DNA of 34,565 nucleotides from Verrucomicrobiia bacterium Tous-C4TDCM (GTDB lineage Bacteria > Verrucomicrobiota > Verrucomicrobiia > Verrucomicrobiales > Akkermansiaceae). Below the pieces are notes generated by a model. It ran no database searches, was not told where the DNA came from, and worked only from the letters and a program-made list of their open reading frames with translations. Positions within the stretch are counted from its first letter, which is position 1. The number at the start of each line of letters is the position of its first letter. Position numbers and translations under genes: made by a program. The stretch is from contig NEUO01000024.1 in assembly GCA_002304315.1 (NCBI GenBank), positions 1-34,565 on the forward strand, in the 5' to 3' direction. Of the stretch, positions 3,445 through 24,892 are shown piece after piece.

Positions 3445-4524
3445 ATGCGCCGGCCCCGCCTGAAAGCTCCCGCCTCCCATCCGGTGGCCTTCTACCATTG
3501 TGTTTCGAGGATTGTGAACCGCGACTTTGTCCTTGGCGACGCCGAGCGGGACAAGCTGGTGGAATACATGCGCACCTACGAACAGCTCTACGGCCTGCGC
3601 GTGCTTTCCTACTGCATCATGTCGAACCACTTCCACATCCTGGTGGAAGTCCCGCAGCGGCCGGCGGAGGCGGACCTGCCGGGCGACGCGGCGCTGGTGG
3701 CCAAGGTCCGCGAGTGCCTCGGCGACAAGCTCGCCAACAGTCTGGAATGGGAGCTTTCCCATCACCGGAGCCAAGGCAACGACGAGGCGGCCGAAGCCCT
3801 GCGCGAAAGCTGGTTCGGCCGGATGTGGAACGTCAGCACCTACATGAAGGTGCTAAAGCAGCGCTTTTCCCAGTGGTTCAACGGCCAGCACGCCCGCCGC
3901 GGAACGCTGTGGGAGGACCGCTACCGCTCGGTGCTGGTGGAAGGCGTCGGCCAGGCGCTGCGGGCGATGGCCGCGTATATCGACCTCAATCCGGTCCGTG
4001 CGAAGATCTGCGATGATCCGAAGGACTACCGCTGGTGCGGCTATGCCGAGGCGGTCGCCGGCGGCAAGGAAGCGCGCGCCGCTGTGAATTGGCTGACCGC
4101 CCTCAATCCCCACGGCGGGATCAAGCCGGAAGCCGCGGCCATGAAGCCGAAGGAGGCCCTCCGTCGCTGGCGTTGCCACCTCTTCGGCATCCCGGAAAGC
4201 GAAGCGCGGCAGGCGCGGCAGGCGGAGCAGGGCGAATTGGCGGCCGTTTTCCGCGACCGGATCCCGCGGGAGAAGGCGCTGGAGGTGCTGGCGAAGGGCG
4301 GCAAGCTCTCGGAGGCGGATTACCTCCGCTGCAAGGTCCGTTATTTCAGTGACGGCGCGGTGCTGGGCGGAAAGAACTTCGTGGAAGGGATCTTCCAAGC
4401 CTGCCGCGAACGATTCGGCCCGAAGCGCAAGGACGGTGCGCGGCCGCTGCGGGGCTTGGCCGGGGAGTCCGTGGACCAACGGCTTTACAACCTGCGACAG
4501 TTGCGGAAAGAGGTGTTTGGGTAA
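3445..4524 (+). mobile_element. REP-associated tyrosine transposase (RAYT; IS200-like Y1_Tnp domain)
   Basis: FYHCVSRIVNRD, CIMSNHFHILVEV (HUH motif), AAYIDLNPVRAKICDDPKDYRWCGYAEA; preceded by short repeats. Confidence 0.88.
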
Positions 4525-6252: not shown

Positions 6253-7233
6253 TTACTTGTCCTTCTTCTCCTTCTCCGGCTCTTTCTTCTCCGGCTCCTC
6301 CTTCTCGGCAGGTTCGGCCGCCTCGCTCTTCTTGACGTATTTGAGCAGATCCTTGAACTCGTCCGGCAGAGGGGTTCCGCCGCCGAGAGAGAGCTGGTAG
6401 AGTTCAGTCAGGGCCGCGGCTTCCAGCAGGCGCTGATGGCCGGTGGAGCCGGGGATTTCGTCCGGAGTTCCCCACAGCTTGATCGCGGTCTGGACATCGG
6501 TGTCCTTCTTGTAAAGGCGCAGCGAGTTGATGGTCGCGGTGCGAGTGATGTCCTCCGAGGCACCGGTGTCGGCGGTCATCGCGATGTTGTAGGCGTTGAT
6601 TGCCGGGACCAGCTTGTCCTGGGAATCCAGCGCAAGGCCCAGGCAATAGCCGATCTGGGCGCGCTGGAAGCCGGGCATGCGCTCCTTGAGGCGTTCCGTG
6701 CAGATGTTTTCCAAGCGGGCCCAGTCCTTGGTCCGGACGGCATCCCACATCGCGTAGAGCTCCACCTGGCGGAGTTGGAACTCGCGGGTCAGGCCGGCCT
6801 TGTCGAAGGTTTCGAGCGCCTTGGTCAGCCCGTCGAGATCGCCTGACTTGCGGAGGCATTCCAATTCCAGGTAGGCCGCGTTGGTCGACGGGTTGTCAGG
6901 AAGTTCCTCGATGCCCTCGTAGGCGGTCTTGATCGCGGCGAGCTTGTCCTTGGCCTCGGTGTATTTGCGGGCCTGGTAGAGCTCGATGGCTTCGGTGAGG
7001 GCCGGCGGTTCGAGGATGTAGATCGACTGGATCTCGTCGATCTTGCCGTCCTTGGTATCAACCGCCTGTGGGGCCACCTTGTAACGGATGGCTGCGGTGG
7101 TCGCGGCGGTGATCCAGACCTGCTCAAAGTCGCCTTCCTCGAAGATGAGGTAGGCCTCCGCTTGCTGGCCTTGGGCATGGGCGGCGGAGATCGCGAGGAC
7201 GGGAAGGGCGAGGTAGGGAAGAAGGGATTTCAT
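6253..7233 (-). CDS. Small secreted protein with helical/TPR-like repeats, cluster A
   Basis: Signal peptide MKSLLPYLALPVLAISAAHAQ; N-terminal beta region, then helical repeats; Lys/Glu-rich tail EKKEPEKEKKDK. Confidence 0.75.
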   Translation of the reverse strand: MKSLLPYLALPVLAISAAHAQGQQAEAYLIFEEGDFEQVWITAATTAAIRYKVAPQAVDTKDGKIDEIQSIYILEPPALTEAIELYQARKYTEAKDKLAAIKTAYEGIEELPDNPSTNAAYLELECLRKSGDLDGLTKALETFDKAGLTREFQLRQVELYAMWDAVRTKDWARLENICTERLKERMPGFQRAQIGYCLGLALDSQDKLVPAINAYNIAMTADTGASEDITRTATINSLRLYKKDTDVQTAIKLWGTPDEIPGSTGHQRLLEAAALTELYQLSLGGGTPLPDEFKDLLKYVKKSEAAEPAEKEEPEKKEPEKEKKDK

Positions 7234-7267
7234 TGCGGGAAAGGTCGTGGGGTTCGGGGTCGGGGTG

Positions 7268-10200
7268 TCACTTCTTCTTGGCGGCTTCTTCCTTGAGCTT
7301 GGCCATCGACTTCACGTCGGACGAGGCTTCGTACTCGGTGACCAGCGCTTCGATCTGCTGCCACATCTTCTTCTCTTCGTCCGACATCTTGTCGACGAAG
7401 CGGCGGGTCTGGTCGATGTAGGTCCAGCCGGACTCGTAGGCACCCTGGCGGTCGGCCTTGTTGTTATCGGCGCCGCCGCCGGGCGAATTCCGCTGCCAGG
7501 ACAGCTCCATCCATGCCTGCATGGCGGGGGCGGAGATCTTGATCAGGCCCTTGTAGGTGTTCCAAACACGGACGTAGTTGGCGAGGGCGTCATTGATCTG
7601 GCCACGCTCATGGTAGGACTTGGCGAGAGCGAAGCCGACCTCCGGGGCGAAGCGGGTGTAGCTTTGGCCACCTTCCTTGGAGAGGTATTGCTTGGCGGAG
7701 GCTTCCGCGGCATCGTAGTCGGCGGACGACATGTTGGCCTGGACGATGCCATACAGGGCGCGCTCCTTTTCGCCCTTATCCTGGGAGTCGGCGAGGACGC
7801 GCTTGAGGTCCTCGATCGCCTTGGACTTCTCTTCCTTGCTGCCTCCGGCCAGCACCGAGGCGCGGCCGAAAAGGGCGGCGAAGCGGAAGGACAGGTCCTG
7901 GCGGGAAAGCGCCTCGTCGTAGTAAGGAAGCGCCTGGCGGGGTGCCGAGGTTTTCTCGCGAAGGAAGTCGCCGGTGCGGACCAGGATGTAGTTGGAGAGC
8001 ACCTTGACGTCGAAGTCGTTCTTCAACTCCTTGAACAGCACGCTGATCAGGGCCTCGGCCTTGTCCTTCTTCGTCTTGTCTTCGCCGGCTTTCTTGAGCT
8101 CACCCTCGGCGACCCCGATGATGGCGATGCGGAGCAACGCGAGGGCCGCCTTGTTCTGGCCGCCGATCTTGGGGAAGTTGTAGTAGTGCTCCTTCAGTTC
8201 CTCGACGCTGTGCTTTTCAAGATAGACGTCGGTGTAGGAATTGATCGCTTCCTCAAGGCCGCGGGAGTCGGGGTTGACGGCCATTTCGGCGATCACATCG
8301 CGCAGGCGGTTGAGGGCTTCCTCGCCGCGGTCGACGGCGTTGAGGGCGTGAACCTGGGAGACGGCGACCTGGGTCTTGTAGGGGGAATCGGTGCCGTGCT
8401 CCTTCCAGAATTTGTCGGCGTAGGGCACGGCATCCTTGACCCGCGGGTTCGGCTCCTTGCCAACCGTCTTCTCGCCGAGCAGGCCGACGAGGTAGAACAG
8501 CGACTCGCCGGCGACGACGCGGTTTTCGCGGCGTTCGGCCAGCTCTAGGGCCTTCTTGTAGTAGTTCTCAGCTTCCTCGCGGTTTTTGTCACTCTGGAGG
8601 ACGTTGCCCTTGAGGTTGAAAGCCATGTCGAGAATCTCGACGTTGGGGAATTCCTCCTCCAAGCGGTTCAGCTTCTCGAGGGCGGGAGCGTTTTCGTTTT
8701 CCGCGTAGTGGCAGTTCGCGCGGTCGAAGAGGCCGAAGGAGTAGTAGATGTTTTTCGCAGGATCGGGGTGCTTCTCGAAGAAGGCGTCGAGCAGCTTGGC
8801 GGCCTTGGTCCAGAACTGCAGGCGGGATATGTTGGAGGCCTGGAAGTAGAGCGCGGCTTGCTCGAACTGGCTCTTGGGATACTTCTCGACGTGCTGGTCG
8901 AGCAGCGGCTGGGCCTTGTCATACTGGCCGGTGTAGTAGTAGCTGCCGCCGAGGACGTGGAGGCAGATGTCGTGCTCCTTCGATCCTTCCGAAAGCTTCG
9001 GCAGCATCTCGACGGCGACGGTGATGCAGGTCTCGTATTCGCCTTCGTAGAAGAGCGAGGTGAGCATCATGCGGCGGACGGCCGGGACGTGCTTGGAGTC
9101 GGGATAGGCCTTGAGGAAGCGCGAGCCGTACTGCTCGGTGGACATCACCTCGCCGATGACGGAGCTGGTCCGGACGAGGTTGTAGAGGTTGTCCTCGCGC
9201 TTCTTCGCCTTGGGGAAGAAGAGTTCGAGCTGCTCGTAGGCAGCGAAGGCACCGCGGGTGTTGCCGTGCTTTTCGTGGATGAAGGCGGTCGCACCGAGCT
9301 GGATCACCTCGTTCGGGTCGCCTTCGCGGCGTTGCGTCTCGAGGTTGTCGCGGGATGCCTCGAGGTTCTTCTTCACCAGCGTGCGGGTGAGTTCCTTCAT
9401 CCCCGCGCGGCTGCCAAGGCGGGCGAGGCGGGACTTCAGGTCCTCGATCATCACGTCGGTGGAAGGCACCAGTTGATAGAGCGCGATCGCGCTGGCTTCC
9501 ATGTCGGCACCGATGGCATCGCCGGCGAGCTTCAGGTAGAGACGGGAGTAGATTTCCATCTCGAAGGGCTCGATGATGATCTCGGAGCGGTTCTTCTCGA
9601 TGAAGGTGAGCAGGGATTTCTCGTCGCGTTTCTCGACCACCGCGGCGACCATGGCCTGGAAGGCGGCAACGATGCCGGCGTCGGGCGTGCCGAAGCGCAG
9701 CTTGTTTTTGATGGAAGTTTCGAGGTGTTCGATGCCTTCGGGGATCTTGTTGAGCTTGAAGTGGCAGATCGAGAGGTTGATGTAGTAAGAGCCCGGATCA
9801 AACTTGTCGCGGGTCTTGTCGCGCTCCTCGAGGAACTTCTTGAACATCCGGATCGCCTCCTCCCAGTTCTCGGCTCCTTGGGCGGCGTTGCCCCACTGGA
9901 GAAGGGCGCGCTTGTTGTAGAGGTTGCCACCGCCGTCGACCTGTTCACCCTTGTTGACATACTTGCGGTAGCATTCTTCGAAGGATTTCGCCGCGTCGTC
10001 CCAGCGCTTGAGCTTCAGCTCGCAAATGCCCTTGCGGTAAAGAGTCACACCGAACTGTGGCCCGAACAGGGTTAGAGCGTTCTTGCCGTAGAGTTCGTTG
10101 CAGCGGGTGAGCATCGTGAGGGCTTCTTCCCATTTGCCAGCTTCCATCGAGGTGAGCGCTCGGGAGTTCAGCGTCTGGGCGTCCTCCTGGAGCTGGGCCC

Positions 10201-10279
10201 TGGCGGGGGGCGCGGTCAGGATGCCGGTGGCAAGAGCCATGCCGAGGACCGGGATGAGGGTGAGGCGTGAAAGATTCAT
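7268..10279 (-). CDS. Giant secreted TPR-repeat protein (about 1003 aa), cluster A
   Basis: Signal peptide MNLSRLTLIPVLGMALATGILTAPPARAQ; many TPR-like units (e.g. AGKWEEALTMLTRC, YRKGICELKLKRWDDAAKSFEECYRKY). Confidence 0.85.
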   Translation of the reverse strand: MNLSRLTLIPVLGMALATGILTAPPARAQLQEDAQTLNSRALTSMEAGKWEEALTMLTRCNELYGKNALTLFGPQFGVTLYRKGICELKLKRWDDAAKSFEECYRKYVNKGEQVDGGGNLYNKRALLQWGNAAQGAENWEEAIRMFKKFLEERDKTRDKFDPGSYYINLSICHFKLNKIPEGIEHLETSIKNKLRFGTPDAGIVAAFQAMVAAVVEKRDEKSLLTFIEKNRSEIIIEPFEMEIYSRLYLKLAGDAIGADMEASAIALYQLVPSTDVMIEDLKSRLARLGSRAGMKELTRTLVKKNLEASRDNLETQRREGDPNEVIQLGATAFIHEKHGNTRGAFAAYEQLELFFPKAKKREDNLYNLVRTSSVIGEVMSTEQYGSRFLKAYPDSKHVPAVRRMMLTSLFYEGEYETCITVAVEMLPKLSEGSKEHDICLHVLGGSYYYTGQYDKAQPLLDQHVEKYPKSQFEQAALYFQASNISRLQFWTKAAKLLDAFFEKHPDPAKNIYYSFGLFDRANCHYAENENAPALEKLNRLEEEFPNVEILDMAFNLKGNVLQSDKNREEAENYYKKALELAERRENRVVAGESLFYLVGLLGEKTVGKEPNPRVKDAVPYADKFWKEHGTDSPYKTQVAVSQVHALNAVDRGEEALNRLRDVIAEMAVNPDSRGLEEAINSYTDVYLEKHSVEELKEHYYNFPKIGGQNKAALALLRIAIIGVAEGELKKAGEDKTKKDKAEALISVLFKELKNDFDVKVLSNYILVRTGDFLREKTSAPRQALPYYDEALSRQDLSFRFAALFGRASVLAGGSKEEKSKAIEDLKRVLADSQDKGEKERALYGIVQANMSSADYDAAEASAKQYLSKEGGQSYTRFAPEVGFALAKSYHERGQINDALANYVRVWNTYKGLIKISAPAMQAWMELSWQRNSPGGGADNNKADRQGAYESGWTYIDQTRRFVDKMSDEEKKMWQQIEALVTEYEASSDVKSMAKLKEEAAKKK

Positions 10280-10417
10280 GGGAACAGGAGTGGCTTTGGT
10301 TTTTCGAAAGGTAGGGGAAAGACAAGCGCCGGCTCGCTCATCCCGCAAGGGAGGAACGGGCCGGCGCGGGAATCTCTTAGGTTACCGTGCCGGCGGGCGC
10401 GGTGAAACGGGGGGAAA

Positions 10418-10888
10418 TCAGGGATCCACCAGGTCGGTGAAGGTCACGTTGCTGATGCCGACGCCCGCGAGGACGTTCAGCACGTCGATCACGCGCTGCT
10501 GGCTGGCACCGCCATCGACGTAGAGCTGGACCAGCGGCCTGGAGTTGGAGCCGGCCGACTTCGCGGCGCTGGCGTAGCTCTGGAGGTCGGCGGTCAGCAG
10601 CGGCAGGTCGCGGGAGTCGGGGTCCGAATCCATCGGGATCTGCGAGGCACCGGCACCGACGGAGATGGTTCCATTGGCATCGACCTTGATGAACTTGGGA
10701 TCGATGTCCGGCACCGACTCACTGGGAGCGGCGGCGGGCAAGGTCATATCGAGATCCTGTTCCCGCTTCTGGATCGTCGTCGTGACGAGGAAGTAGATCA
10801 GGAGCAGGAAGGTGCAGTCGATGAGCGAGGAGATGTCGAGGGCCGGGAGGTCGTCGTCCATCGGTGCGACTTTTTTATGGCGGGCCAT
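10418..10888 (-). CDS. ExbD/TolR-family biopolymer transport protein, cluster A (second ExbD)
   Basis: LDISSLIDCTFLLLIYFLVTTTIQ single TM with conserved Asp; periplasmic ExbD-like domain ending QQRVIDVLNVLAGVGISNVTF. Confidence 0.87.
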   Translation of the reverse strand: MARHKKVAPMDDDLPALDISSLIDCTFLLLIYFLVTTTIQKREQDLDMTLPAAAPSESVPDIDPKFIKVDANGTISVGAGASQIPMDSDPDSRDLPLLTADLQSYASAAKSAGSNSRPLVQLYVDGGASQQRVIDVLNVLAGVGISNVTFTDLVDP

Positions 10889-10903
10889 GGCGGGTAAGTT
10901 GGG

Positions 10904-11353
10904 TTATTTGGCGGTGACGTAAACCGCGAAGACCACTTGGTCGACGCCGCCCTTGGCAGCGGCTCGGATCACCTGCCGGCTGAACTTGAAAACGGCCTCT
11001 TTGTCACCGCGAAGGTGAAGCTTCGGTTTGTAGCCCAGCAGATCCATCTTCGCCTTTTCGGTTTTTACCAGATCGATGATCGCCTCTTCGCCGTCGAGAG
11101 CTTGTTTCGTCTCCGTCGTGAACTTTCCGTCCTGATAGACGTTTACCACGATTCGGCCATTGCCGTCTTCCGCCTTGCGGGAGTTAACGGCGATTGGGGG
11201 GCGAACCGCGGGATCCTGTTTCACCACGATGACCGTCGCGTTCACCAAGAAGAACATCAGGAGAAGGAACACCATGTCGATCATCGGCGACATGTCCAAC
11301 GTACAGTTATCATCGGCGGACGGGCCGGAATTGCGGAGCTTGGAAGAGGCCAT
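10904..11353 (-). CDS. ExbD/TolR-family biopolymer transport protein, cluster A (first ExbD)
   Basis: CTLDMSPMIDMVFLLLMFFLVNATV. Confidence 0.88.
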   Translation of the reverse strand: MASSKLRNSGPSADDNCTLDMSPMIDMVFLLLMFFLVNATVIVVKQDPAVRPPIAVNSRKAEDGNGRIVVNVYQDGKFTTETKQALDGEEAIIDLVKTEKAKMDLLGYKPKLHLRGDKEAVFKFSRQVIRAAAKGGVDQVVFAVYVTAK

Positions 11354-11422
11354 ATGCGGATGGGTGGTTTGGATTCCTGAAGAGACGGGCCGCCGTGTGC
11401 GTCCCGTCCTTCGTCATTGGAA

Positions 11423-12211
11423 TCAAACGGCGATGCCTTCCGGAATCTTGGCCAGATATGCCTCGGCGTTTACGGTCTGCAGCGAGGCATTGATCATGTC
11501 CTCGGCCGCGTGGTGGCAATCGGCGATGAGGTTGTTGAGGCGGTTTTTGAAATAGTAGTAAGCGACCAGGCAAGGAATGGCGTTGATCAGGCCCCACAGG
11601 GTGGTGAGAAGGGCGACGGAGATCGAACCGGCGAGCTGGCTCGGGTCGGCGGACCCGGTGATGGCGAGAATACCGAAAGCGTCGACCATGCCGAGCACGG
11701 TGCCGAGCAGTCCAAGCATCGGGGAGACCTGGGCGCACAACGAAATGTAGTTGAGCGGGGTCATCATCTTGCGGGTCTCGTTGGTCGTGAAGTCGGCCAT
11801 CGCATCTTCGATCTGGTCGCGGCCGAGGTCTTCGGGGCGGGTGGCGTCGATGTTCGGCAGCGAGTAGGCCATCATGCGGCCGAGGAAGGATGGGTGGGAG
11901 GCGGCGAGCTCAATGGCGGAGCGGACGCGGCAGTTGACCATGTGGTCCATGAGGGCGGCCTTGAGGTCATCCGGGCAGAACTTCGGCTTCGTCAGGTTGA
12001 TGAAATTGAAAACGCAAAGGGCGATGAAGGCAACCATCGCGGCACCGATGAAACCCATGGTCCAGCCACCGTCGATGACCCACTTGGTGAGCAAGGTCTT
12101 TTCCGGCTGGACGGCGGCCTCCTGCGCCATGAGCAAGGGAGCGGTCACCAGAAGGGTGGTGGCGAGTGCTGCCGTGAAGCGGCGACTGCGGGAAGCAAGG
12201 TTGTGGATCAT
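11423..12211 (-). CDS. MotA/TolQ/ExbB proton channel family protein, cluster A
   Basis: VSPMLGLLGTVLGMVDAFGILA and ISVALLTTLWGLINAIPCLVAYYYFKNRL; N-terminal signal-like segment; start at MIHNLASRSRR. Confidence 0.9.
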   Translation of the reverse strand: MIHNLASRSRRFTAALATTLLVTAPLLMAQEAAVQPEKTLLTKWVIDGGWTMGFIGAAMVAFIALCVFNFINLTKPKFCPDDLKAALMDHMVNCRVRSAIELAASHPSFLGRMMAYSLPNIDATRPEDLGRDQIEDAMADFTTNETRKMMTPLNYISLCAQVSPMLGLLGTVLGMVDAFGILAITGSADPSQLAGSISVALLTTLWGLINAIPCLVAYYYFKNRLNNLIADCHHAAEDMINASLQTVNAEAYLAKIPEGIAV

Positions 12212-12333
12212 GGAATTTTGATTGGATTGCCAAGCGAGTAGCGGCGAATTCTGGAAATCCTTCGAAGGCCCGCAAGGAAAGATTTTGGAAAACGTGGGAA
12301 GACGCAGGCGCTGTAAATACAGCATTAAGACGA

Positions 12334-12972
12334 TCAACCTGCCGTTTTCCTTGGGGGAAAGATTTCACGGCAGAGAAGGCATGAGCGGCCGTCGCAGCCG
12401 CGCGCGGTGCAATGGCCCCGGCCGTAGAAGATGATCCGCAGGTGGAGGGCGTTCCAGCGGTCGCGCGGAAAGAGCTTTTTCAGGTCGCGCTCGGTCTGTT
12501 CGACGTTGCGGCCGACGGTGAGTTTCCAGCGTTTGGCGATGCGGTGGATGTGGGTATCGACGGGGAAGGCCGGGACGCCGAAGGCCTGGGCCATGACGAC
12601 GGAGGCGGTCTTGTGGCCGACGCCGGGCAGGGCTTCGAGCGCGGCGAAATCGGCGGGGACCTGGCCGCCGTGCTGGTCGACGAGGATCTGCGAGAGATCG
12701 CGGATGGCCTGGGACTTTTTCGGGGACAGGCCGCAGGGTCGGATGATGGCGCGGATCGCTTCGACCGGCACCTGCGCCATGTCTTCCGGCCTGGAAGCCA
12801 GCGTGAAGAGGGCCGGGGTGACGGTATTCACCCGGGCGTCGGTGCATTGGGCCGAAAGCAACACCGCGACCAGCAGGGTGAAGGGGTCCCGGTGGTCGAG
12901 CGGGATCGGGGTCTCCGGATAGAGTTCTTCCAGCCGCCGGTCGATATGGGCGGCCCGTTGGGCGCGGGTCAT
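12334..12972 (-). CDS. nth: Endonuclease III
   Basis: LLSAQCTDARVNTVTPALF, LPGVGHKTASVVMAQAFGVPAFPVDTHIHRIAKRW, C-terminal Cys cluster. Confidence 0.92.
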   Translation of the reverse strand: MTRAQRAAHIDRRLEELYPETPIPLDHRDPFTLLVAVLLSAQCTDARVNTVTPALFTLASRPEDMAQVPVEAIRAIIRPCGLSPKKSQAIRDLSQILVDQHGGQVPADFAALEALPGVGHKTASVVMAQAFGVPAFPVDTHIHRIAKRWKLTVGRNVEQTERDLKKLFPRDRWNALHLRIIFYGRGHCTARGCDGRSCLLCREIFPPRKTAG

Positions 12973-12975
12973 CGT

Positions 12976-13009
12976 TTCACGGAGCGCAGGCGTTCACGGA
13001 GCGCTGGCG
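12976..13009. repeat. 17-bp near-perfect tandem duplication
   Basis: TTCACGGAGCGCAGGCG / TTCACGGAGCGCTGGCG, one mismatch. Confidence 0.85.
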
Positions 13010-13058
13010 TCTCGCCGGCTTCGACAGTCGGGGAGCCCGACCGCCTCTCTAACCGCGT

Positions 13059-13733
13059 TTAGCGGGCGGCGGTGGACGCCGTCTGGCCTGAGGTCAGGCG
13101 GTTGATGGCCGCATACATTTGCGCGCAGTGGGGATGATGGACCCGCTTGGAGAGAATCTCGGCGCTGCGTGCGTAGGAGCCCCACTGGACGACGGTGAGT
13201 TCGACATTGCGGCGGCCCCAGGTGTTCATGTGGCTCTTGCAGGGGGTGTAGATGTCGACGGTGTTGGTGCCGGTGAGGGCGGAGCCGTAGTCATCGACCA
13301 CGAAGAGCTGCTTCATGCCCTTGATGCGGAAAACGGTGCCAACCGGATAGACGGCCCAATCGGCGGCGGCGCTGCGGACGCGGTCGGTGTAGCGGAGCGG
13401 GGTGCCGGCGGCATTCATCGAGCCGTATTCGATGTGGTCGTCTTCCGAGCAGGTGTAGGCGGTGGTGCGGACCAGACGGGTGCGCTCGGAGGGCTTGTAG
13501 AAGGCCATGCCGTGCTTGTCCTTCGGCTTGCCGGCGGCCTGCGGGGCGAGGGACGCCGAAGGCTGGGCGGTGGTGTAAACGGCGCAGCCGTGGACGATGC
13601 CGCCGGAGCGAGCCATTCCGCCGGACGATGACGTGGCGCGGGATTTGGAAAGGACCGTGAGGTCGGAATCCGAGGCGCAACTGGAGAAGAGAAGGGCAAT
13701 CAACGCGGCGGCGGAAGAGAGGCGGAAAGTCAT
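13059..13733 (-). CDS. 3D (Asp-Asp-Asp) domain-containing putative lipoprotein
   Basis: N-terminal LIALLFSSCAS; YPVGTVFRIKGMKQLFVVDDYGSALTGTNTVDIYTPCKSH resembles the MltA-like 3D domain. Confidence 0.78.
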   Translation of the reverse strand: MTFRLSSAAALIALLFSSCASDSDLTVLSKSRATSSSGGMARSGGIVHGCAVYTTAQPSASLAPQAAGKPKDKHGMAFYKPSERTRLVRTTAYTCSEDDHIEYGSMNAAGTPLRYTDRVRSAAADWAVYPVGTVFRIKGMKQLFVVDDYGSALTGTNTVDIYTPCKSHMNTWGRRNVELTVVQWGSYARSAEILSKRVHHPHCAQMYAAINRLTSGQTASTAAR

Positions 13734-14101
13734 GCGATAGATTTGGGAATGTGGAATTTACACGTTGTCACGTTATTCGAGACTCGGGGTTCTACGGGTT
13801 TGCCCGGGGGGTCGGCAACCCTAAAATCCCCTGTTAGGAGCCGCACTCCGCAGCGGATGGCATGCCAAGGATGGCGATGACCGTGCAATTGAAAGACAAC
13901 GCGCGCGCTCCGGACGCCCCGCCGGCCTGAAAAATGTCAGCCGCTTGGCCTTGTGATCCAATCCGATCCGGGGACGTATTCCGGGACATCGGAATAGGTG
14001 CGCGAGGATCACTTTCATCCTGCCTTGGAAGCATAGCCGGGAACCTCATACGTTTGGCAACGGAAGCCCCGAATCCCGGGGATTTGAATTGACGCCGGAT
14101 T

Positions 14102-16933
14102 TTGATTGCGAAGCGAATAGGTGTGGCACCGCCCCATCAAATCCCGGAAAAAAAGAGGGTTGCTCCTCTTTTCCTGGCCCTGTTTTCGTCGCTTTCTCTG
14201 AGCCTCTCCGGGCAGGTGGACCTGAATCGCGCCCTCAGTGAAGGGATGGCTGCCTACCGCTCCAAGGACTACAACACGGCGATCGAGAAACTTTCCGCGA
14301 TTGTTTCGGCGAAACCGGACGGGCCGGGCGAGAACGTTCTCTACACGCTGGGCTTCGCCTACTACTTTCAGCTCCGCCACCAGGATTCGGCGGACACCTT
14401 CGCGCTTTACCTGAAGAAACACCCGGACACCGCGAACTCGCACAAGGTCCATTTGATCCTCGGGCGGGCGCTGCTCCAGTTGGATGGCAAGGCGGACGAA
14501 GCGCTAGGTCATCTGGCCAAAGCATCGGAGAAGCCCGAATTCGCGGAGGAAGCCCGCTTCCTGGCGGCCGACGCCTACCTCAAGAAGGGCGATACCGAGA
14601 AGGCCGCACAGACCTTGAAGAACGCCATGAAGAACAAGGCGTCCGGGCCGAGTGTCCTGCGGGCTTCGTTGGAACTGGTCGATGTTTACATTTCCGACGA
14701 CAAGCTCGACGAGGCGGTCGAAATGCTGGAGAAGCTCGAGGCATCCGCCGGCTATCCGGACATCATCGTGACGGCGAACAATCGTTTCGTCCGGATTGGC
14801 GACCTGCATCTGGATTCGCAGTCCTATGCCGACGCGCTCGAGGCCTACTCATCGGTCCGTCCCCGCACCCAGGTGATCGCGATCCAGCTCGCCCGGCTCG
14901 AGCAAATGCGGCACCTCAAGGAAGACTTTGACAAACGGATCGCCGCGGCCGCCAAGGCGAAGCAGGCGCTGCCGCGGGGAACCGAGGAAAAGGCGGCGAC
15001 GCTCGCGGCGATGATCGAGAACACCGACAAGGTGCTCGGGGAGATTCGGACCCAGGAGGACTACGATGCCACGATCCAATACCGGATCGGTCGCTGCTAC
15101 TTCAATATGGAGCGCTTCTGGCCTGCGTCGGTGGCGTTCGAGGCGGTCGCGGATGAGAATCCGAAGTCCACGGACGCGCCGACCGCCCTGTTCGGTGCGA
15201 TTGTTTCCCAGTGGCGGCTTGAGCGGCCCGAGGCTGCACGCAAACTGTGCGCGGCTTACCTGGAACGGTTTCCCAAGGGAAAGCAGTTTGCCCAGGTGGC
15301 GGAACTGAACACGACACTGCTCATCCAGCAGGGACTCAACGAGGAAGCGATCGCGTTCCTGAGGCCGTTCCTTGAGAAGAACCCTGAAGTGCCCGGGAGG
15401 CAGAAGCTGCTCGGACTGCTGGCCAACGCGCGATTCCAGGCGGGGGCTTACGATGCGGCCGCGGCCGACTACGACAGCTTGCGCAAGGAATTCGCCTCGT
15501 CGCCGGAGTTCGAGGAATACACCTACCGCCGGGCGCTTTGTAATTTCCTGCGGAACGACTACGAGGCGACCACCGAGGCGTTCGACGCCTACGAGCGGGA
15601 TTTTCCGAACGGCCAGTTCATCCCCGACATCCGCTACCGCCGGGGCATCATCCAGCTCGCGTTGAAGGATTACGATGGCCTGATCAAGGCCATGAACAGC
15701 CTGCTCGAGGATCCGGCGGCGGAGGGCTTCGGCGGCCAGATCCATACCTTGCTCGGGGACGCCTTATCGGCGAAGGGCGACAACGAGGCGGCCGCGGGTG
15801 CCTATGCCAGCGCGGTGAAATCCGCCAATGGCGACGACAACGTCATCCAGTATTCGCTGGAACAGGCGACCAACCTGCTTCGCGGGCTGCGTCGTTGGAA
15901 CGAACTCGAGTCCTTGTGGAAGGAATTCCTGAAGCAGAATCCGAAGCACCCGATGGCGCTGCGGGCGGTGTCGGAGCTGTCGAAGCTGCTGGTCCGTGCC
16001 AACAAGAAGGATGAAGCCCGCCAGATGCTGGCCGGCCAGGTGCTCGGTGACATCCAGAACAGCCGTTCCGAGTATGTGGAAATGCTCATAAGCCAGCTGG
16101 CCGGGCTCCACGTGCCGCCGCGAGTGGTGAAAAAGGACGCGCCCCAGCCTGACCTCGACAAGATTGAGGGCGAGCTAGTCAAGGAACTGGAGGTTGCCGA
16201 AGACAACCGGACGCCGGTCTATCTTGCCCGCGTGCTGTTTGCCAAAGCCGAGCTGGGCCGGATGATGCGGGACGCCGCCCGCAACGAGCGGAATCTCAAC
16301 GCGATCGCCAACACCGCCAATCCAGACGACCTTGGTCCCATTCTTCTCTCGATGATCGGCCAGTTTCTGCTGGACGACGGGCAGCTGGACACGGCGGTCC
16401 CTCTGTTCACTCGCCTCCGCGACGCCTTCCCGCAGTCTCCTTTCTCCGATGCCGCGCCGGTCGGCCTGGGTCGCATCGCCCTGGCCAAGAAAGAGTTTCC
16501 CGCCGCGCTGGAGCAGTTCGACTACGCGCTGACCCGCAGCGTCGGCGGATCGATGCTCAAGGAGGCGACCTTCGGCAAGGCGCTCGCCCTGAAAGGGCTG
16601 AAGAAGCTGGAAGAGTCCAAGAAATTGTTCGAGGAGATCGTTTCCAGCAAGGAATGGCGCGGCCTTGAAAAAGCCGGATCGCTCTTCGAGCTCGGCGAGA
16701 TCGCTGCCGAAACCGGGGACAAAGGGGCCGCCAACGCCTACTTCCAGCGTGTCTACCTGTCTCATGGGGCCTATCCACAATATGCAGCCAAAGCTTACCT
16801 CCGCAGCGCCGAGATGCTGAAGGCCGACGGCCAGAGCGACGCAGCGCAGAGGACCTATCGTGAACTCGTCCGCAACCCGAAGTATGCCGACACCCCCGAG
16901 GTGAAAGTGGCGCGAGCCCAACTCAAGGAATGA
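14102..16933 (+). CDS. Giant secreted TPR-repeat protein (about 940 aa), cluster B; exact start uncertain (TTG 14102 or GTG 14123)
   Basis: N-terminal hydrophobic APLFLALFSSLSLSLSGQ; many TPR-like units (SKDYNTAIEKLSAIV, LGFAYYFQLRHQDSADTFALYLKKHP). Confidence 0.85.
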   Translation: MIAKRIGVAPPHQIPEKKRVAPLFLALFSSLSLSLSGQVDLNRALSEGMAAYRSKDYNTAIEKLSAIVSAKPDGPGENVLYTLGFAYYFQLRHQDSADTFALYLKKHPDTANSHKVHLILGRALLQLDGKADEALGHLAKASEKPEFAEEARFLAADAYLKKGDTEKAAQTLKNAMKNKASGPSVLRASLELVDVYISDDKLDEAVEMLEKLEASAGYPDIIVTANNRFVRIGDLHLDSQSYADALEAYSSVRPRTQVIAIQLARLEQMRHLKEDFDKRIAAAAKAKQALPRGTEEKAATLAAMIENTDKVLGEIRTQEDYDATIQYRIGRCYFNMERFWPASVAFEAVADENPKSTDAPTALFGAIVSQWRLERPEAARKLCAAYLERFPKGKQFAQVAELNTTLLIQQGLNEEAIAFLRPFLEKNPEVPGRQKLLGLLANARFQAGAYDAAAADYDSLRKEFASSPEFEEYTYRRALCNFLRNDYEATTEAFDAYERDFPNGQFIPDIRYRRGIIQLALKDYDGLIKAMNSLLEDPAAEGFGGQIHTLLGDALSAKGDNEAAAGAYASAVKSANGDDNVIQYSLEQATNLLRGLRRWNELESLWKEFLKQNPKHPMALRAVSELSKLLVRANKKDEARQMLAGQVLGDIQNSRSEYVEMLISQLAGLHVPPRVVKKDAPQPDLDKIEGELVKELEVAEDNRTPVYLARVLFAKAELGRMMRDAARNERNLNAIANTANPDDLGPILLSMIGQFLLDDGQLDTAVPLFTRLRDAFPQSPFSDAAPVGLGRIALAKKEFPAALEQFDYALTRSVGGSMLKEATFGKALALKGLKKLEESKKLFEEIVSSKEWRGLEKAGSLFELGEIAAETGDKGAANAYFQRVYLSHGAYPQYAAKAYLRSAEMLKADGQSDAAQRTYRELVRNPKYADTPEVKVARAQLKE

Positions 16934-17805
16934 AATCCCTGCTTCCACTCACAGGCTGCTTTCTCGGTCTTTCCCTGTCCTCCGTTCACGCGCAATCGCA
17001 GGAAGATTTCGAGCTTCGCAACGGCCGCCGCATCGCAGCGGAATCCGTCAAGCCGACCGCGACCGGATTTTCCGCCGTCGTGGTGACTGGCGCGAATGCC
17101 CAGAACATCACCTTCACGGCCAAGGACATCGTCCGCGCGAACCTGCGCGAGCCGGCGGCTCTCGCCGAGGCCCGGACCCTGATCGCCTCCGGCAAGCTGA
17201 TCGCGGCGATTTCCCTGCTGACCACGACCGAAGAAGAGCTGCTGCCCTACCGGCAGGTTCCCGGGGCATGGTGGCACCGCGCCCTCATGCTCCGGATGGA
17301 CGCACTGGCTGCAAAAGGCGAAGCGGCAGCGGCATTGGCTGCCGCCGGGGCTGAAGAGTTGGCCGGGCTTCCCGAGGAGAGCGCGGCTTCCCTGACCGGC
17401 TTCCAGGACATTATCGCGAAACCGATCGGGAGCCCCGAGACGAAGATCGCCTCCCTGGAGGCCGTGGCGAAGCGGACCGCGGATCCCTGGATCGCCGCCC
17501 GGGCGTGGTTGGAGGTCGGCAACACCCACGCCGGACAAGGCAAGATGGAGGCGGCCGTCAAGACGTGGCTCCGGGTGGCGGTTTTCCATCCGGCCGAGCG
17601 GGATCTCGCCGTCCGCGGTACGATCCTCGCCGCTCGCGGTCTCCAGCAGATCGAGCGGCCTCAGGACGGCCTCAAGCTGCTCGACGATTACCTCAACGAC
17701 CACCTTGCATCTCCCTACGAAACCACCATCAAGGCGGAAGCCGCCAAGAGCGACCCGAAACGCGATACCACCCCGGCCGCACCGGCCGATAAAGACCCCA
17801 AGTGA
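16930..17805 (+). CDS. Small secreted helical-repeat protein, cluster B
   Basis: Signal peptide MKSLLPLTGCFLGLSLSSVHAQ; ATGA overlap with the TPR gene stop; charged C-terminal tail. Confidence 0.78.
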   Translation: MKSLLPLTGCFLGLSLSSVHAQSQEDFELRNGRRIAAESVKPTATGFSAVVVTGANAQNITFTAKDIVRANLREPAALAEARTLIASGKLIAAISLLTTTEEELLPYRQVPGAWWHRALMLRMDALAAKGEAAAALAAAGAEELAGLPEESAASLTGFQDIIAKPIGSPETKIASLEAVAKRTADPWIAARAWLEVGNTHAGQGKMEAAVKTWLRVAVFHPAERDLAVRGTILAARGLQQIERPQDGLKLLDDYLNDHLASPYETTIKAEAAKSDPKRDTTPAAPADKDPK

Positions 17806-17827
17806 CCCAACCGATTCATTTCTGAGC

Positions 17828-18670
17828 ATGAACTCCCCAAACATCCTCCGCCGCCTTGGCCAAGCGTTCCGGATCGCCCTTCTCGCCGGTGCCTTCGTGG
17901 TATTCTGTCCGATTCACCAGGTTTCCGCCCAAGAGCCGGCCGCTTCATCGGAAACCGCGGAAGCCAAGCCCGCCGCGACCAAAAAGACCATGTGGGACAC
18001 TTTCAAGCTCGGGGGCTGGGTCATGTGGCCGCTCACGGCTTGCTCGATTTTCACGATCTATCTGGTCATCGATGTGTATCTCCGCACCTCCTCCAGGAAG
18101 ATGTGGCCTGCGGAAGAGATCCAGAAAGCCCAGCAGCTCTTCATGGCCGGCGACTATGTCAACGCCTACCAGGTGATGAAGGCCACGCCCTGTTCCTTCA
18201 ACAACTGCGTGAAATACGGCCTGTCATTCGTCGGCAAGGGAAAGGACCAGACCGAAGAAGCGCTGCTGGTCGAAGTCGGCCGTGAGAACGCACGCATCCA
18301 GAACCGGATCAACTACCTCTCGGTCATCGGCGTTTGCACCCCGATGATCGGTCTGGTCGGCACCGTCATGGGGATGATGAAGGCCTTCGACGAGCTCGGT
18401 GCCTCCGGTGCCGGGGAAACCAGCGCGCTCGCCGGACACATCGGCGAGGTGCTGGTCGCGACCGCCTCCGGTCTCTTCATCGCCATTCCCGCCTTCATGT
18501 TCTTCTACATCCTGCGCAACCGCCTGTCGGCCCAGGTGCACGACCTGGAAGACCAGGTCACCAGCCTCTTCCGGAACATGCCCTACGACCACTTCCACGG
18601 TCTGGAGATCGGCGAGGAAGCCACCTATGCGGCTCTCCCCAACTGGGTTGGTGTCGAGGCGGAAGCCTGA
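17828..18670 (+). CDS. MotA/TolQ/ExbB proton channel family protein, cluster B
   Basis: CTPMIGLVGTVMGMMKAFDELGA and EVLVATASGLFIAIPAFMFFYILRNRL. Confidence 0.92.
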   Translation: MNSPNILRRLGQAFRIALLAGAFVVFCPIHQVSAQEPAASSETAEAKPAATKKTMWDTFKLGGWVMWPLTACSIFTIYLVIDVYLRTSSRKMWPAEEIQKAQQLFMAGDYVNAYQVMKATPCSFNNCVKYGLSFVGKGKDQTEEALLVEVGRENARIQNRINYLSVIGVCTPMIGLVGTVMGMMKAFDELGASGAGETSALAGHIGEVLVATASGLFIAIPAFMFFYILRNRLSAQVHDLEDQVTSLFRNMPYDHFHGLEIGEEATYAALPNWVGVEAEA

Positions 18671-18707
18671 GTTCGCGGACGCCACAAACCCTTTCTAAAC
18701 CAAGTCC

Positions 18708-19148
18708 ATGGCAAGCGCTGGCGGCGGAGATGGAAGCGAACCTGAATTCCAGGTCGCTCCGATGATCGACGTGCTCCTCGTGCTGCTCATTTTCTTCATG
18801 AGCATCACGACCGATCAGGTCATGAAGGTCGACAAGTCGATCAAGCTGCCGCTCGCCCCGGAAGCCAAGGCGCGGAAGCACGACATCAAGAACGAGGCGA
18901 TCGTGAACGTCGACTGGGACGCCGCCCTCGCCCGCGCCCAGGTGCGCTACGGCGCCCAGATCTGCGATCCATTGGAACAGCTCGCCGAACTGGTCCGCCC
19001 CGCGAAAGAAGCAAACCCGAAGCTCAAGCTGATCATCCGCGGCGACGCCGATGCCCCGGCGATCGAGATCCAGAAGGTGATCGAGCAACTCGCAACCGCC
19101 GGCATCGACGACATTTCCCTGTCTGGCACCAACCGCAACTCTCCTTGA
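18708..19148 (+). CDS. ExbD/TolR-family protein, cluster B (first)
   Basis: FQVAPMIDVLLVLLIFFMSITTDQ; C-terminal IEIQKVIEQLATAGIDDISL. Confidence 0.9.
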   Translation: MASAGGGDGSEPEFQVAPMIDVLLVLLIFFMSITTDQVMKVDKSIKLPLAPEAKARKHDIKNEAIVNVDWDAALARAQVRYGAQICDPLEQLAELVRPAKEANPKLKLIIRGDADAPAIEIQKVIEQLATAGIDDISLSGTNRNSP

Positions 19149-19161
19149 TCCCGCGCCCGTC

Positions 19162-19614
19162 ATGAAATCCAAGAAGAGAGGCCGCAGCGCGCCCGAACAG
19201 ATCCACCTCGGCTTCCAGATCGCGCCGATGATCGACGTGGTCTTCGTCATCATGCTTTTCTTCATGGTCATGGCCGGTGCCGTTCAGAAAGAGCACGAAC
19301 TCAACCTGAAACTACCGGGAACGATTTCCGCCGACAAGCCGGTGGACGTGATTGAGGAGACGCAGGTCCGCGTGCTGGATACCGGGGAGATCCTCCTCAA
19401 CGACGAACCGATGGGCGACCCCGAGGATTCAAAGCTTCAGAACCTCTCACTCACGATGATCAAATTGGAGGAATCCTCCAAGGCTGCGGAAAGCAAGGTC
19501 GTCGTCACCATCATGGCCGATGAGTTCGCGCCTTTCCAACGGGTGATCGATGTTCTCAACGCGCTTTCGATCGCCCGAATCCAGAACGTCACCTTCGAGG
19601 TCCCGCCCCAATAA
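19162..19614 (+). CDS. ExbD/TolR-family protein, cluster B (second)
   Basis: FQIAPMIDVVFVIMLFFMVMAGAVQKEHELNLKLPG. Confidence 0.9.
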   Translation: MKSKKRGRSAPEQIHLGFQIAPMIDVVFVIMLFFMVMAGAVQKEHELNLKLPGTISADKPVDVIEETQVRVLDTGEILLNDEPMGDPEDSKLQNLSLTMIKLEESSKAAESKVVVTIMADEFAPFQRVIDVLNALSIARIQNVTFEVPPQ

Positions 19615-19636
19615 AGATTCCAGCCCCGAGTTTGCC

Positions 19637-21297
19637 ATGGAAGAGCCAACCTATTACGAGCCTGCTGCAGAGCCTAAGAATAGCCGGCTGAAGACCCTGA
19701 TCGCCCGGATGGGTCTCGGGGCGTTCACGATCTCGCTGATCGTCCACGCCATATTCATCGTGCTGGCGATTTTCTATTTTGTGAAATGGGTGGAACCCAA
19801 GCAGGAGAAGGTCGATTTCCTGCCCGGCGGAGGTGGTGGCGGGGGTGCCGGTGGCGAGACCGCCCACAAGGTCCAGCAGCAGATGAAGCAGCGGATGATG
19901 ACCAGCACCGCGGTTTCCAAGCGGATCGCCTCCACATCGAACACCGCGGCATTCACCCTGCCGGATTCCTCCAACGAACTGATGGACCCGGGCTTGCCGA
20001 TGGATGTCGGCGCCGCGCAGATGGGTTCCGGCGGCGGCGAAGGCGGCGGACGCGGCACGGGCAAGGGAACCGGCACCGGGTCGGGGACGGGTCCCGGCAA
20101 GGGCATGGGAGAAGGCCAACTTGGCATCGGCGCCCTGATCCCGACCATCATGAAAGGCCGCTGCACCGACAACGAGCGCTCGCTGATGCTGCGGGAGGCT
20201 GGTGGGACCGATCAGGTGGAGGTTGCCGTCAAAAAGTCGCTGGCTTGGTTCAAGTCGAAGCAAAATCCGGACGGATCCTGGGGCAGGAGCCACAATGTGG
20301 CGATGACCGGGCTTACGCTGCTGTGCTTCCTGGGCCACTGCGAAGGCACCCAGTCCAACGAGTATGGTGATACGGTGAGCAAGGGGATTGCCTTCTTGCT
20401 CGATAAGTCGCTCAAGCACAATGGAATGATGGCGTCCCAATTCGGCGGTAACTCGTGGGTTTACGAGCACGCGATCGCCACTTATGCGCTGTCGGAAGCA
20501 TTGACCTTTTCGCGCGGCCTTCAATTTCCGATTCCCGAGCTGGAATCCGCGGTCCAAAAGGCGGCCACGCTCATCATCACGGGGCAAACCAAGGAAGGTG
20601 GCTGGGACTATGGTTATGCGGACAAGGGCCGCAACGATCTCTCGGTGGTCGGCTGGCAGATGCAGGCATTGAAGGCGGCAAAGGCTTCCGGCGTGAAGCT
20701 GGAGAATTTCGACCGCACCATTCGCAAGGCCACCGATTGGCTGGCCGACACGGCCTATCTCGGCGACGGTAAGTTTGCTTACAGCGGAGCTGGAGCCAAT
20801 CCCGGCATGACGGCCGTCGGGAGCCTCTGCCTCCAGCAATGGGACAAGGCAAAAGCAAGCCCGTCCGGGAAGGTGTGAAGCTGATCATGGAGGGCTTGGA
20901 ACTGCGCGACAAACCGAACGCGAAGGTCAGTGACTTCTCTCCGCTCTACTCGATGAAGTATGACGGTCCGAACTGCGACCTCTACGCCTGGTACTACGCG
21001 GTCCAGGTCATGCGCAACGCCGAGGGCAAGGAGTGGGAGGCCATGAACAAGGCCATCCTTGAAGACGTCCTTCCCCAGCAGAACGAGGATGGCTCGTTCA
21101 AGTTCGAAAACGGGAAGATCGATCGTAACGAAAAACTGGTCCACGTCCGCGGCACCGAGGCGGTCGGAAATTCCCGCGACGTCTACCTCCAAGCCCTGAA
21201 CACGCTAATCCTCGAGGTCTATTACCGCTTCCTTCCCGCGACCTCCGCCGGCAAGAGCCGCGGTTCCGGCCTTGATCACCTTGACGACCTCCGGTAA
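19637..21297 (+). pseudogene. Membrane-anchored Gly-rich protein with prenyltransferase/squalene-oxidase-repeat-like (alpha/alpha toroid) domain, split by an apparent -1 frameshift near 20851 (ORFs 19637-20878 and 20839-21297)
   Basis: SLIVHAIFIVLAIFYFV TM anchor, Gly-rich linker, SLAWFKSKQNPDGSWG, GGNSWVYEHAIATYALSEAL, KEGGWDYGY toroid repeats; the next frame continues with YDGPNCDLYAWYYAVQVM... Confidence 0.8.
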
Positions 21298-21416
21298 CGG
21301 CGGGGGGAACGGTCAAGAATCATCGTGGCGGGTCGTGAAGGGCGACCCGGTGGGTGGACGACTCCACAGCAGGTCGCGGCATAAGGGCCGCGGCGGCCAG
21401 CGCGCGGTCCAAAGGT

Positions 21417-23078
21417 TCACGGCTCGAGGTATTTCCGCACCTCCGGCGGGACGAACTCCGCGTCGGTGGCTTCTTCGGCGGCGAGCTGCATCTGGGCGCG
21501 GATGATGGCGGGATCGACCGGCGGCAGGTAGCCTTGGAGGCTGGCGCGGAGGGCGTCGGCGGCGAGGGGCGTGCCGGTTTTGGTGAGGCGGTAGGCTTTC
21601 ACGGCGAGGGCTTCCGCGGCGCCGGGGGTGAGCCAGCAGGGGACCAGCGGGAGGAGCTCGGCCTTGGCGGCCTCGTCGAGCGGGATGCCGCGGCGCTTGC
21701 AGAGGGCGGCGAGCAGGACCATGCCCTCGGCCGGGGTGGCGGTAGGGAAAATCGGGACTTTGACATCGATCCGGCCGGGGCGCTTGAGGTCGACCTCGAT
21801 CAGGTCCGGCCGGCTGGAGGCGAGCACCCACAGGATCTTGCCGCGGTTGCGGGTGTTCGACATTTCGGCGGCCAGCATCGAGTAAACGCGGCTGGAAACG
21901 CCGGAGTCGCCGCTGCCCGAGGCGCGGCGGCCGAGCGCTTGGTCGGCTTCGTCGATGAACACGATGCAGCGGCCGAGGGCGTGGAGCAGGGCGAAGATTT
22001 TCTCAAGGTTCGCCTCGGTCGAGCCGACCCAGCGGTCGCGGAAATTCCGCAGGGTGACCACGGGCACGCCGGCTTCCCCGGCGAGGCATTCGGCGAGGTA
22101 GGTCTTGCCGGTGCCGACCGGGCCGCAGAACAGGTAGCCCATCGGCAAGGCGGCGGTTTCATCCTGCTTCCAAAGCGCGAGGTCCTGGCGGAGGCGGGTC
22201 TTCACGCCATCGAGCCCGATCACGTCGTCGAGGGTGCGGTCGGGCTCGACGAAGTCGATCAGCTCGCCGGCATCGCGCTCGACCAGCGCCTTGCGGAGTT
22301 CGCCGAGGTCGGCGTCGCCGAGCGGTTCGCCGGCGTGGTTGCGGCGGCGGAGGAAGGCTTCCAGCGCGGCGATCGAGGTGCCGGCCAGGCGGGCGGCGAT
22401 GCGCGGGAAATCGGTCACGCCTTCGAGCGCCTTCGGGCATTCCGGGGCCAGGACTTGCAGCGCGCCGGCGAGTTCCGCGCCGTCGGGCAGCGGGATTTCG
22501 ATCTCCGCGGCGCGCGGGTTCGCGGCGACCAGCGGGTGGAGGTGGTGGATCCGGTCGGCGATCAGGAAGACCGCCTGACCTTGCGCGGCGAGGGTGGTGT
22601 CGCTGCCCCAGGTGCGGATCAGCGAGGCGATCGCGCTGAGCTCGTGGTTCATCGTCTGCGGGAGGACGGGGACGTAGAGCTGGGCATCGCGCAGGACCAC
22701 CGCGACGCTCACCGGCTTGGCTCCGACGGCGCGGAGGTTGCGGGCGTATTGGAGGAAGCGGGCGACGGCGCGGATGGCGGGCAGTGGCAGCGCGGGGAGT
22801 TCGCCGATCTCTTTCAAGGCGGGCCAACTGGCGAACAGATCATTGCCGCGCTCGACCCGCAGGCCGAAGCCGGGATCGTAGGACAGCACGATCTGGAAGC
22901 GCGGCAGGAGGACGTCGAGCAGGTAGTCGTTCAGTCGGCCGAGCTTCGGCCCGTCGGCGAGGCGCAGCAGCATGCGGTCGGCGACGTTGCCGTGGAGGAT
23001 GAACTGCCCCGCCGCGCCGCTTTCGTAGCGCGCGACGATCTCGGTGGCCCAGGACGGGAGAGGAAAGGCTTCAGGCAT
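21417..23078 (-). CDS. AAA+ ATPase
   Basis: Walker A GPVGTGKT, Walker B CIVFIDEADQALG, sensor-1 VLASSRPDLI, SRH-like RPGRIDVKV. Confidence 0.9.
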   Translation of the reverse strand: MPEAFPLPSWATEIVARYESGAAGQFILHGNVADRMLLRLADGPKLGRLNDYLLDVLLPRFQIVLSYDPGFGLRVERGNDLFASWPALKEIGELPALPLPAIRAVARFLQYARNLRAVGAKPVSVAVVLRDAQLYVPVLPQTMNHELSAIASLIRTWGSDTTLAAQGQAVFLIADRIHHLHPLVAANPRAAEIEIPLPDGAELAGALQVLAPECPKALEGVTDFPRIAARLAGTSIAALEAFLRRRNHAGEPLGDADLGELRKALVERDAGELIDFVEPDRTLDDVIGLDGVKTRLRQDLALWKQDETAALPMGYLFCGPVGTGKTYLAECLAGEAGVPVVTLRNFRDRWVGSTEANLEKIFALLHALGRCIVFIDEADQALGRRASGSGDSGVSSRVYSMLAAEMSNTRNRGKILWVLASSRPDLIEVDLKRPGRIDVKVPIFPTATPAEGMVLLAALCKRRGIPLDEAAKAELLPLVPCWLTPGAAEALAVKAYRLTKTGTPLAADALRASLQGYLPPVDPAIIRAQMQLAAEEATDAEFVPPEVRKYLEP

Positions 23079-23195
23079 CCGGGAGATGACACCGGGGCGA
23101 TATCGGATTGTCGAGGGGTAAGGCGGAGGCATTCCTGGAATCGATGAATGCCCGGCGCTTGGTCGCGGCACGGAAGAGGCCGGCCGTGCCGGGAC

Positions 23196-23609
23196 TCAGC
23201 CTCCGGCGATCACCGGCTTGAAGCCGGCTGCGGTCAGGATGCGCTTCATCTCCTCCCGCTTGTCGCCTTGGATTTCGATGCAGCCGTCCTTCACCGTGCC
23301 TCCGACACCGCAAGCCTTCTGCATCGCTTTCGCGAGCTCCTGCTTTTCCGCCAACCCGATGCCGGTGAAGTTTTTCGCCACCGTGACGGCCTTGCCGCCG
23401 CGATGGGCGGTCTGGCGGACGATGTCGACCCGGCCGCGGTTGAGGTTCTTCTGCCCGCGTCGGGAAGCCGGTGCCGGGATCGCCGTTTCCGAATGCCGGG
23501 GGACGTCCGGCCCCGCCGGGAGATTGCCAAGCCCGGCCAGCGCCGCGAAAGGATCCGGCGTCCGCCCTGTTTCTCCGCGGCTGGACCCGCTCCCGTTGTT
23601 TCCATTCAT
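23196..23609 (-). CDS. SUI1/YciH-family translation factor
   Basis: GKAVTVAKNFTGI...LAKAMQKACGVGGTVKDGCIEIQGDKREEMKRIL. Confidence 0.87.
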   Translation of the reverse strand: MNGNNGSGSSRGETGRTPDPFAALAGLGNLPAGPDVPRHSETAIPAPASRRGQKNLNRGRVDIVRQTAHRGGKAVTVAKNFTGIGLAEKQELAKAMQKACGVGGTVKDGCIEIQGDKREEMKRILTAAGFKPVIAGG

Positions 23610-23882
23610 GAGGACCCAACCAAGCAGGATGCTCCCGATCTTCACGCTTTTTCCGAGGTCTTTGCCCCGCTGAAGACGACGACGATCCTGTCCCTCGTCC
23701 GCGGCGGCGAGACCGCGGAAGACATTGCCGACTTGCTGGCGATCAGCCTGGAGGGGTGAAAGCGGCGAAGGCGTTTGAACCCAGCAAGGCCGCATGAGGA
23801 TCTACTTCGGGTGATCGGTGAGAGCAGGCGGAAGCCGTTGCGCAGGCTTTGAGCCAGATTTGCGGGTCCATCATCCCGATTC

Positions 23883-24230: not shown

Positions 24231-24244
24231 GATTGGGAAATGGA

Positions 24245-24882: not shown

Positions 24883-24892
24883 GGATCCACCT

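Follow-up and report, generated by a model that had tools for sequence, protein, structure and literature searches.

TonB and TolA have long been, to our knowledge, the only arms known for motors of the ExbB-ExbD kind. There is precedent for several TonB proteins sharing one motor. A further layout, TPR-tolQ-tolR-tolR-transducer with vWA-type transducers, was published in 2025 for PVC bacteria (Tichowtungia family; PMC12204202). In the accessible part of that account, the vWA transducers contact the motor through a His residue in AF3 models. The AglRQS/Glt motor of Myxococcus xanthus combines one TolQ homologue with two TolR homologues and TPR envelope partners, and has its own TonB-like output protein, GltG (PMC3169522).

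The window, i.e. the whole stretch of 34,565 nucleotides analysed here, corresponds to contig C124 in a draft genome of 4.28 Mb (72% complete) from the Akkermansiaceae, and it carries two clusters of this general kind, A and B. Judged against the accessible part of the 2025 account, cluster B has in common with the vWA clusters the TPR gene, the tolQ-like gene, two different tolR-like genes and the downstream transducer, and its arm has in common with the vWA transducers the transmembrane (TM) helix, the linker and the motif His (PMC12204202). The arm of cluster B, however, is predicted to end in an alpha/alpha toroid instead of a vWA domain, so that cluster B is better regarded as a variant than as a member of the vWA family. 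Cluster A differs from the published layout in its gene order and in having no transducer. The same part of the account was not found to mention PA14-like ends, several scattered arms for one motor or the exclusion between A and B, and no description of toroid or PA14-like arms, of an arm repertoire or of an A/B exchange was found in a mostly non-subscription literature. A sequence-only reading of the window proposed the clusters as an undescribed machine, which is too strong, since the layout had already been reported in PVC bacteria, though with vWA ends (PMC12204202).

The analogy with AglRQS drawn in that reading is factually right, and AglRQS is best taken as a functional parallel to the present clusters: the one TolQ and two TolR homologues and the TPR partners are shared, whereas GltG has FHA and TonB domains (PMC3169522), and no Glt-like outer-membrane genes are recognised beside clusters A and B. 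With the Ton system, cluster B shares the motor family, the proton residues, the three-part topology of the arm and the His in its TM helix; it differs in having no TonB_C domain or adjacent TonB receptor, in having two different ExbDs, and in its constant TPR scaffold. The MUL1 and MUL2 loci of Akkermansia were considered as the same system, which is unlikely for MUL2, as it is pilus-related, and doubtful for MUL1, whose synteny is reported as absent in aquatic Akkermansiaceae (PMC13174399).

Organisation of the clusters and their motor subunits

Cluster A lies on the minus strand in the order ExbB-ExbD1-ExbD2-TPR-small protein, and cluster B on the plus strand in the order TPR-small protein-ExbB-ExbD1-ExbD2-toroid protein; every gene named in the sequence-only reading is recovered by the ORFs and Pfam. 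In cluster A, the ExbB gene (11423-12211; PF01618, 7e-27; channel Thr kept) encodes a signal-like N-terminal extension, its start having been chosen by inspection. It is followed by the genes for ExbD1 (10904-11353; PF02472, 4.2e-15) and ExbD2 (10418-10888; PF02472, 6.9e-18), both assigned on the ExbD tree and both with the proton Asp, for a secreted TPR scaffold of ~1000 aa, A_TPR (7268-10279; Pfam TPR, Sec signal by eye), and for a small secreted protein (6253-7233) that has no Pfam match and adjoins A_TPR across the genus. The nth gene (12334-12972) and a gene for a 3D-domain protein (13059-13733) separate the two clusters.

Cluster B begins with a secreted TPR scaffold of ~940 aa (14102-16933; Pfam TPR), which is kept in seven relatives of the genus and in relatives of the order. 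The small secreted protein (16930-17805; no Pfam match) is modelled by AlphaFold2 as a beta domain followed by TPR-like helices (pLDDT 86.6), and Foldseek matches it weakly to TPR proteins and BamD. The ExbB gene (17828-18670; PF01618, 2.2e-27), whose nearest solved relatives are TolQ and then ExbB, precedes the genes for ExbD1 (18708-19148; PF02472, 4e-18) and ExbD2 (19162-19614; PF02472, 3.9e-18), again assigned on the tree and with the proton Asp. The very tight spacing reported earlier holds for cluster B, where genes overlap by 4 nt or are separated by 13-37 nt. It holds for cluster A between ExbB, ExbD1 and ExbD2 (69 and 15 nt) and between the TPR and small-protein genes (34 nt), but not between ExbD2 and the TPR gene (~138 nt).

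Elsewhere in the window, 2667-3203 encodes a PEP-CTERM protein (Pfam, 2e-5) and 3445-4524 has, by eye, the look of a REP/IS200-type transposase. The long plus-strand ORFs at 21313-27451 resemble antisense artefacts; the minus strand there encodes Pfam-supported AAA ATPase, SUI1, DUF3024, FtsX and ABC ATPase proteins.

The proton Asp in the TM helix is present in 97 of 97 ExbDs, and both channel Thr residues in 68 of 68 ExbBs. Each cluster thus resembles a motor driven by the proton motive force, as had been proposed. In the tree of the 97 ExbD rows, the ExbD1s of A fall with those of B (98/89), the ExbD2s are placed on the opposite side (95/91), and the vWA-type clusters of relatives in the order hold the same two kinds. 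On this sequence tree, the split between ExbD1 and ExbD2 is older than that between A and B. A pair that predates the A/B split and is kept in both motors is as expected of a mixed rotor.

Several related loci depart from this arrangement. Two of them (L123, 8986-9929; L128, 8942-9929) have three ExbDs per cluster: an extra ExbD2-like gene lies ahead of the toroid arm, and the TPR gene is preceded by a PA14-like arm. Orphan ExbD2-like genes akin to the ExbD2 of cluster A are found at L069 (G000:C114, 8585-9130), L077, L079 and L080, with no ExbB recognised nearby. The window's own genome contains another TPR-ExbB-ExbD-ExbD cluster (L070, G000:C60, 4299-13279), behind which come genes for a short TM protein whose tail is rich in Pro, a protein of ~470 aa that is DUF4159-like by eye, and a TPR protein; it represents a further PVC motor type. 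At nine loci (L086, L094, L099, L102, L104, L114, L130, L138 and L150), a second motor set, ExbB-ExbD-TPR (~277, 139 and 800-900 aa), lies directly downstream of the toroid gene.

The toroid protein and its anchor

The toroid gene of the window is frameshifted near 20,854-20,860. The TM helix with its His, the Gly-rich linker and the start of the toroid domain are encoded at 19637-20878 on the plus strand (SQHop_cyclase_C, 2.9e-6; AlphaFold2 of the homologue L082), and the remainder of the domain at 20839-21297 in another frame, tblastn with an intact homologue matching two frames. The frameshift, real or an assembly error, is deduced from three relatives (G007, G009 and G011) in which the protein is a single ORF of ~553 aa. 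The gene of the toroid protein therefore continues to 21297.

In the protein, a single TM helix that contains a His (within SLIVH in the window) is followed by a Gly-rich disordered linker and a globular C-terminal domain. In the AlphaFold2 model of the intact homologue L082, the TM helix spans residues 28-53, disorder extends over 59-167, and an all-helical domain occupies 171-516 with pLDDT mostly above 90. Foldseek relates the domain to squalene-hopene cyclase and to glycan-active alpha/alpha barrels (GH76, GH105, epimerases) with TMt of ~0.5-0.6, and by this model the end of the protein is an alpha/alpha toroid. As the topology is that of TonB and TolA, cluster B carries a candidate force transducer. 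The earlier statement that the window has no classical TonB stands with respect to the TonB_C domain, but it overlooked the TonB-like N-terminus of the toroid protein.

Over 103 anchor sequences, 92 of 100 aligned rows show the His, as do all 29 members of the full-length set A5. Compared with the SHLS motif in the TM helix of TonB and TolA, the His of the anchor is near-invariant, while the residue at -4 is Ser in 53% and Ala in 47%. The Pro of the linker motif (L/I)P(D/E) is 98% conserved. A search of the anchor sequence against TonB and TolA in the PDB gave no match other than Gly-rich artefacts. Homology to TonB is therefore not claimed; the likeness lies in topology, the His and gene position.

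For the neighbourhood of the toroid gene, an alignment of the toroid was scanned against 84,980 species genomes, and the best 80 loci were fetched, all of which are verrucomicrobial and include isolates of Haloferula, Luteolibacter and Brevifollis. The conservation check proposed with the sequence-only reading comes out in favour of cluster B: TPR, small protein, ExbB, ExbD1, ExbD2 and toroid protein lie on one strand in 32 of these 80 best Verrucomicrobiales loci. Among the remaining toroid proteins there, 8 belong to partial clusters, 17 lie at contig edges and 26 have no motor nearby. By this comparison of sequences, the order and strand of cluster B are conserved far beyond chance.

The anchor is not confined to toroid proteins. 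A profile built on their anchors also finds vWA-ended and PA14-like-ended proteins, and the linker motif is common to all three end types. In L036, L039, L040, L123, L128 and L134, arms with these other ends occupy the same gene slot, immediately after the toroid gene or ahead of the TPR gene. Pfam scores of the ends are modest (PA14, 3.8e-7 at best and often under the curated cut-off; vWA, 7.8e-7). The loci fetched before those of two single-contig genomes, G394 and G363, hold 90 toroid, 24 PA14-like and 10 vWA ends, and among them no PA14-like end was seen without the anchor. G394 and G363 add 31 arms, 24 PA14-like and 7 vWA.

Distribution of arms and motors in the family

The survey of the family covers 212 Akkermansiaceae genomes, namely those with a completeness of at least 85% and, in addition, that of the window. 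Of these 212, 49 have the B ExbB, and the anchor is found in exactly those 49; because the genomes are related, the counts lack independence, yet three genera show the pattern. The 49 genomes together have at least 154 anchors, which are often scattered, and 29 of them have more than one. For example, G394 has at least 19 anchors and G363 has 13, each with one B ExbB. Within the window's genus, seven other B genomes have 4-11 anchors and the window's genome has one, that of the frameshifted gene, whereas the A-only genomes of the genus give no anchor match better than 1e-8. Since the shared anchor carries toroid, PA14-like and vWA ends, often from scattered genes, it appears that one motor serves several arms. 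Other motors, such as at least two apparent Ton systems in the window's genome, could drive some of the arms.

The A ExbB is found in 163 of the 212 genomes. A alone occurs in 157, B alone in 43, both in 6 (the window's genome included) and neither in 6. In the three genera with B, the numbers of A-only, both and B-only genomes are 10/1/6, 17/5/35 and 6/0/2. The two motors are thus largely alternatives, and the facing pair does not hold up as a conserved unit: A and B are adjacent in the window, and partial versions are seen in three relatives. As the window's genome is one of the rare ones with both motors, the pair is a matter of local synteny. A chimeric contig as the source of the adjacency was considered and is unlikely, because in G007, G009 and G011 cluster B is likewise found next to the 3D gene, at the same site and in the same orientation.

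On a tree of the flanking nth and 3D proteins, the B-only state within the window's genus requires at least two changes. A_TPR is present in 17 of 17 relatives of the genus, in some as fragments, and all B-only genomes of the genus keep it while the A motor is absent; its identity to the A_TPR of the window is 45-54% in these genomes, whereas nth, in those measured for both, has 83-87%. Most B-only genomes of the second large genus have A_TPR gone, fragmentary or with a stop, and over all genera 20 of the 43 B-only genomes keep any A_TPR match. The simplest reading of these sequence comparisons is that A was replaced by B, with later decay of A_TPR. An alternative, which we consider somewhat unlikely, is that the A_TPR scaffold works with the B motor in genomes that have no A motor, scaffolds and motors being mixed and matched rather than swapped as sets. 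It would account for the presence of A_TPR without the A motor in every B-only relative of the window's genus, but the loss or breakage of A_TPR in most B-only genomes of the other large genus looks like decay after replacement.

Proposed mechanism and its alternatives

The explanation of cluster B that we consider probable is a motor driven by the proton motive force which, together with a TPR scaffold, powers TonB-like arms that are interchangeable. The motor would be of the 5:2 type in the inner membrane, with an ExbB pentamer and a rotor presumably formed as a heterodimer of one ExbD1 and one ExbD2, and would work with the periplasmic TPR scaffold and the small partner. The arm would be anchored beside the motor by its TM helix with the conserved His, its flexible linker would span the periplasm, and its C-terminal domain, in the window the predicted alpha/alpha toroid, would act there. 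The arm may contact the motor and thereby exert force on a partner in the outer membrane or at the surface. Cluster A would be a paralogous motor and scaffold without an arm, largely replaced by B. A wider proposal, which we hold only tentatively, is that of a hub-type motor, in which one motor with heterodimeric ExbDs powers from one to at least 19 arms, each engaging a different partner, and which has on several occasions within the Akkermansiaceae taken the place of an older motor that had no arms.

The arms might help to import glycan-degrading machinery or to display it at the surface (selfish polysaccharide uptake), a role that is at present rather doubtful. Accumulation of fucoidan has been demonstrated in Akkermansiaceae cells (PMC13174399), the PA14-like arms of G009 adjoin GH112, GH38, GH29, sulfatase and PSD1/DUF1501 genes, and arms in G394 and G363 adjoin PL8, GH92 and PATR surface proteins; PSCyt/PSD1 genes have been tied to carbohydrate use by context (PMC5615132). 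However, PATR proteins are found in 5 of 36 arm neighbours against at most 1 of 38 controls, which is weak, seeded glycan families give 2 of 20 against 0 of 20 controls, an enrichment that is not significant, and many arms adjoin housekeeping genes. As controls and seeded searches gave weak enrichment, a role in glycan use or with surface proteins is a lead and not a result. An all-against-all comparison of the neighbours for a conserved partner gene beside orphan arms returned families that were all small; the clearest, a GH43 protein, recurs at 5 arm loci in 4 genomes. Genes of this family adjoin vWA-ended arms in G009 and G007 (L197, L206 and relatives). A Verru_Chthon cassette, considered for a 1170-aa neighbour in L193, was rejected, as it had no NCBIfam match.

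An unlikely alternative is that the toroid, PA14-like and vWA proteins are enzymes or binding proteins of the periplasm, tethered to the membrane, whose leader and operon are shared with the motor by coincidence. The toroid resembles glycan-active barrels and terpene cyclases about equally, and no relation of the anchor to TonB is detectable by sequence, both of which would suit such proteins; a near-invariant His within a TM helix, a linker motif found with all three kinds of end, and the exact co-occurrence of anchor and B motor argue against them. That the two clusters represent ordinary Tol-Pal or Ton systems is highly improbable and largely refuted: TolQ and ExbB are the nearest solved relatives of the ExbB, but no TonB_C (PF03544), TonB-receptor, TolB or Pal gene is recognised in the window, the two TonB_C proteins of the genome are encoded elsewhere (C138 and C15), near other ExbD genes, and the constant neighbours are giant TPR and small proteins, with ends that are toroid, PA14-like or vWA.

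The vWA arms of 2025, in the accessible part of their account (PMC12204202), hinted at more kinds of arm, and here two further end types are found on the same anchor. The exchange between A and B offers a natural experiment on motor replacement; the group has isolates (Haloferula, Luteolibacter and Brevifollis) as well as relatives for which uptake of large glycans has been demonstrated. Finally, a multi-copy repertoire of arms tied to a single motor lineage makes it a concrete question by what means a single proton-driven motor might supply many outputs across the envelope.
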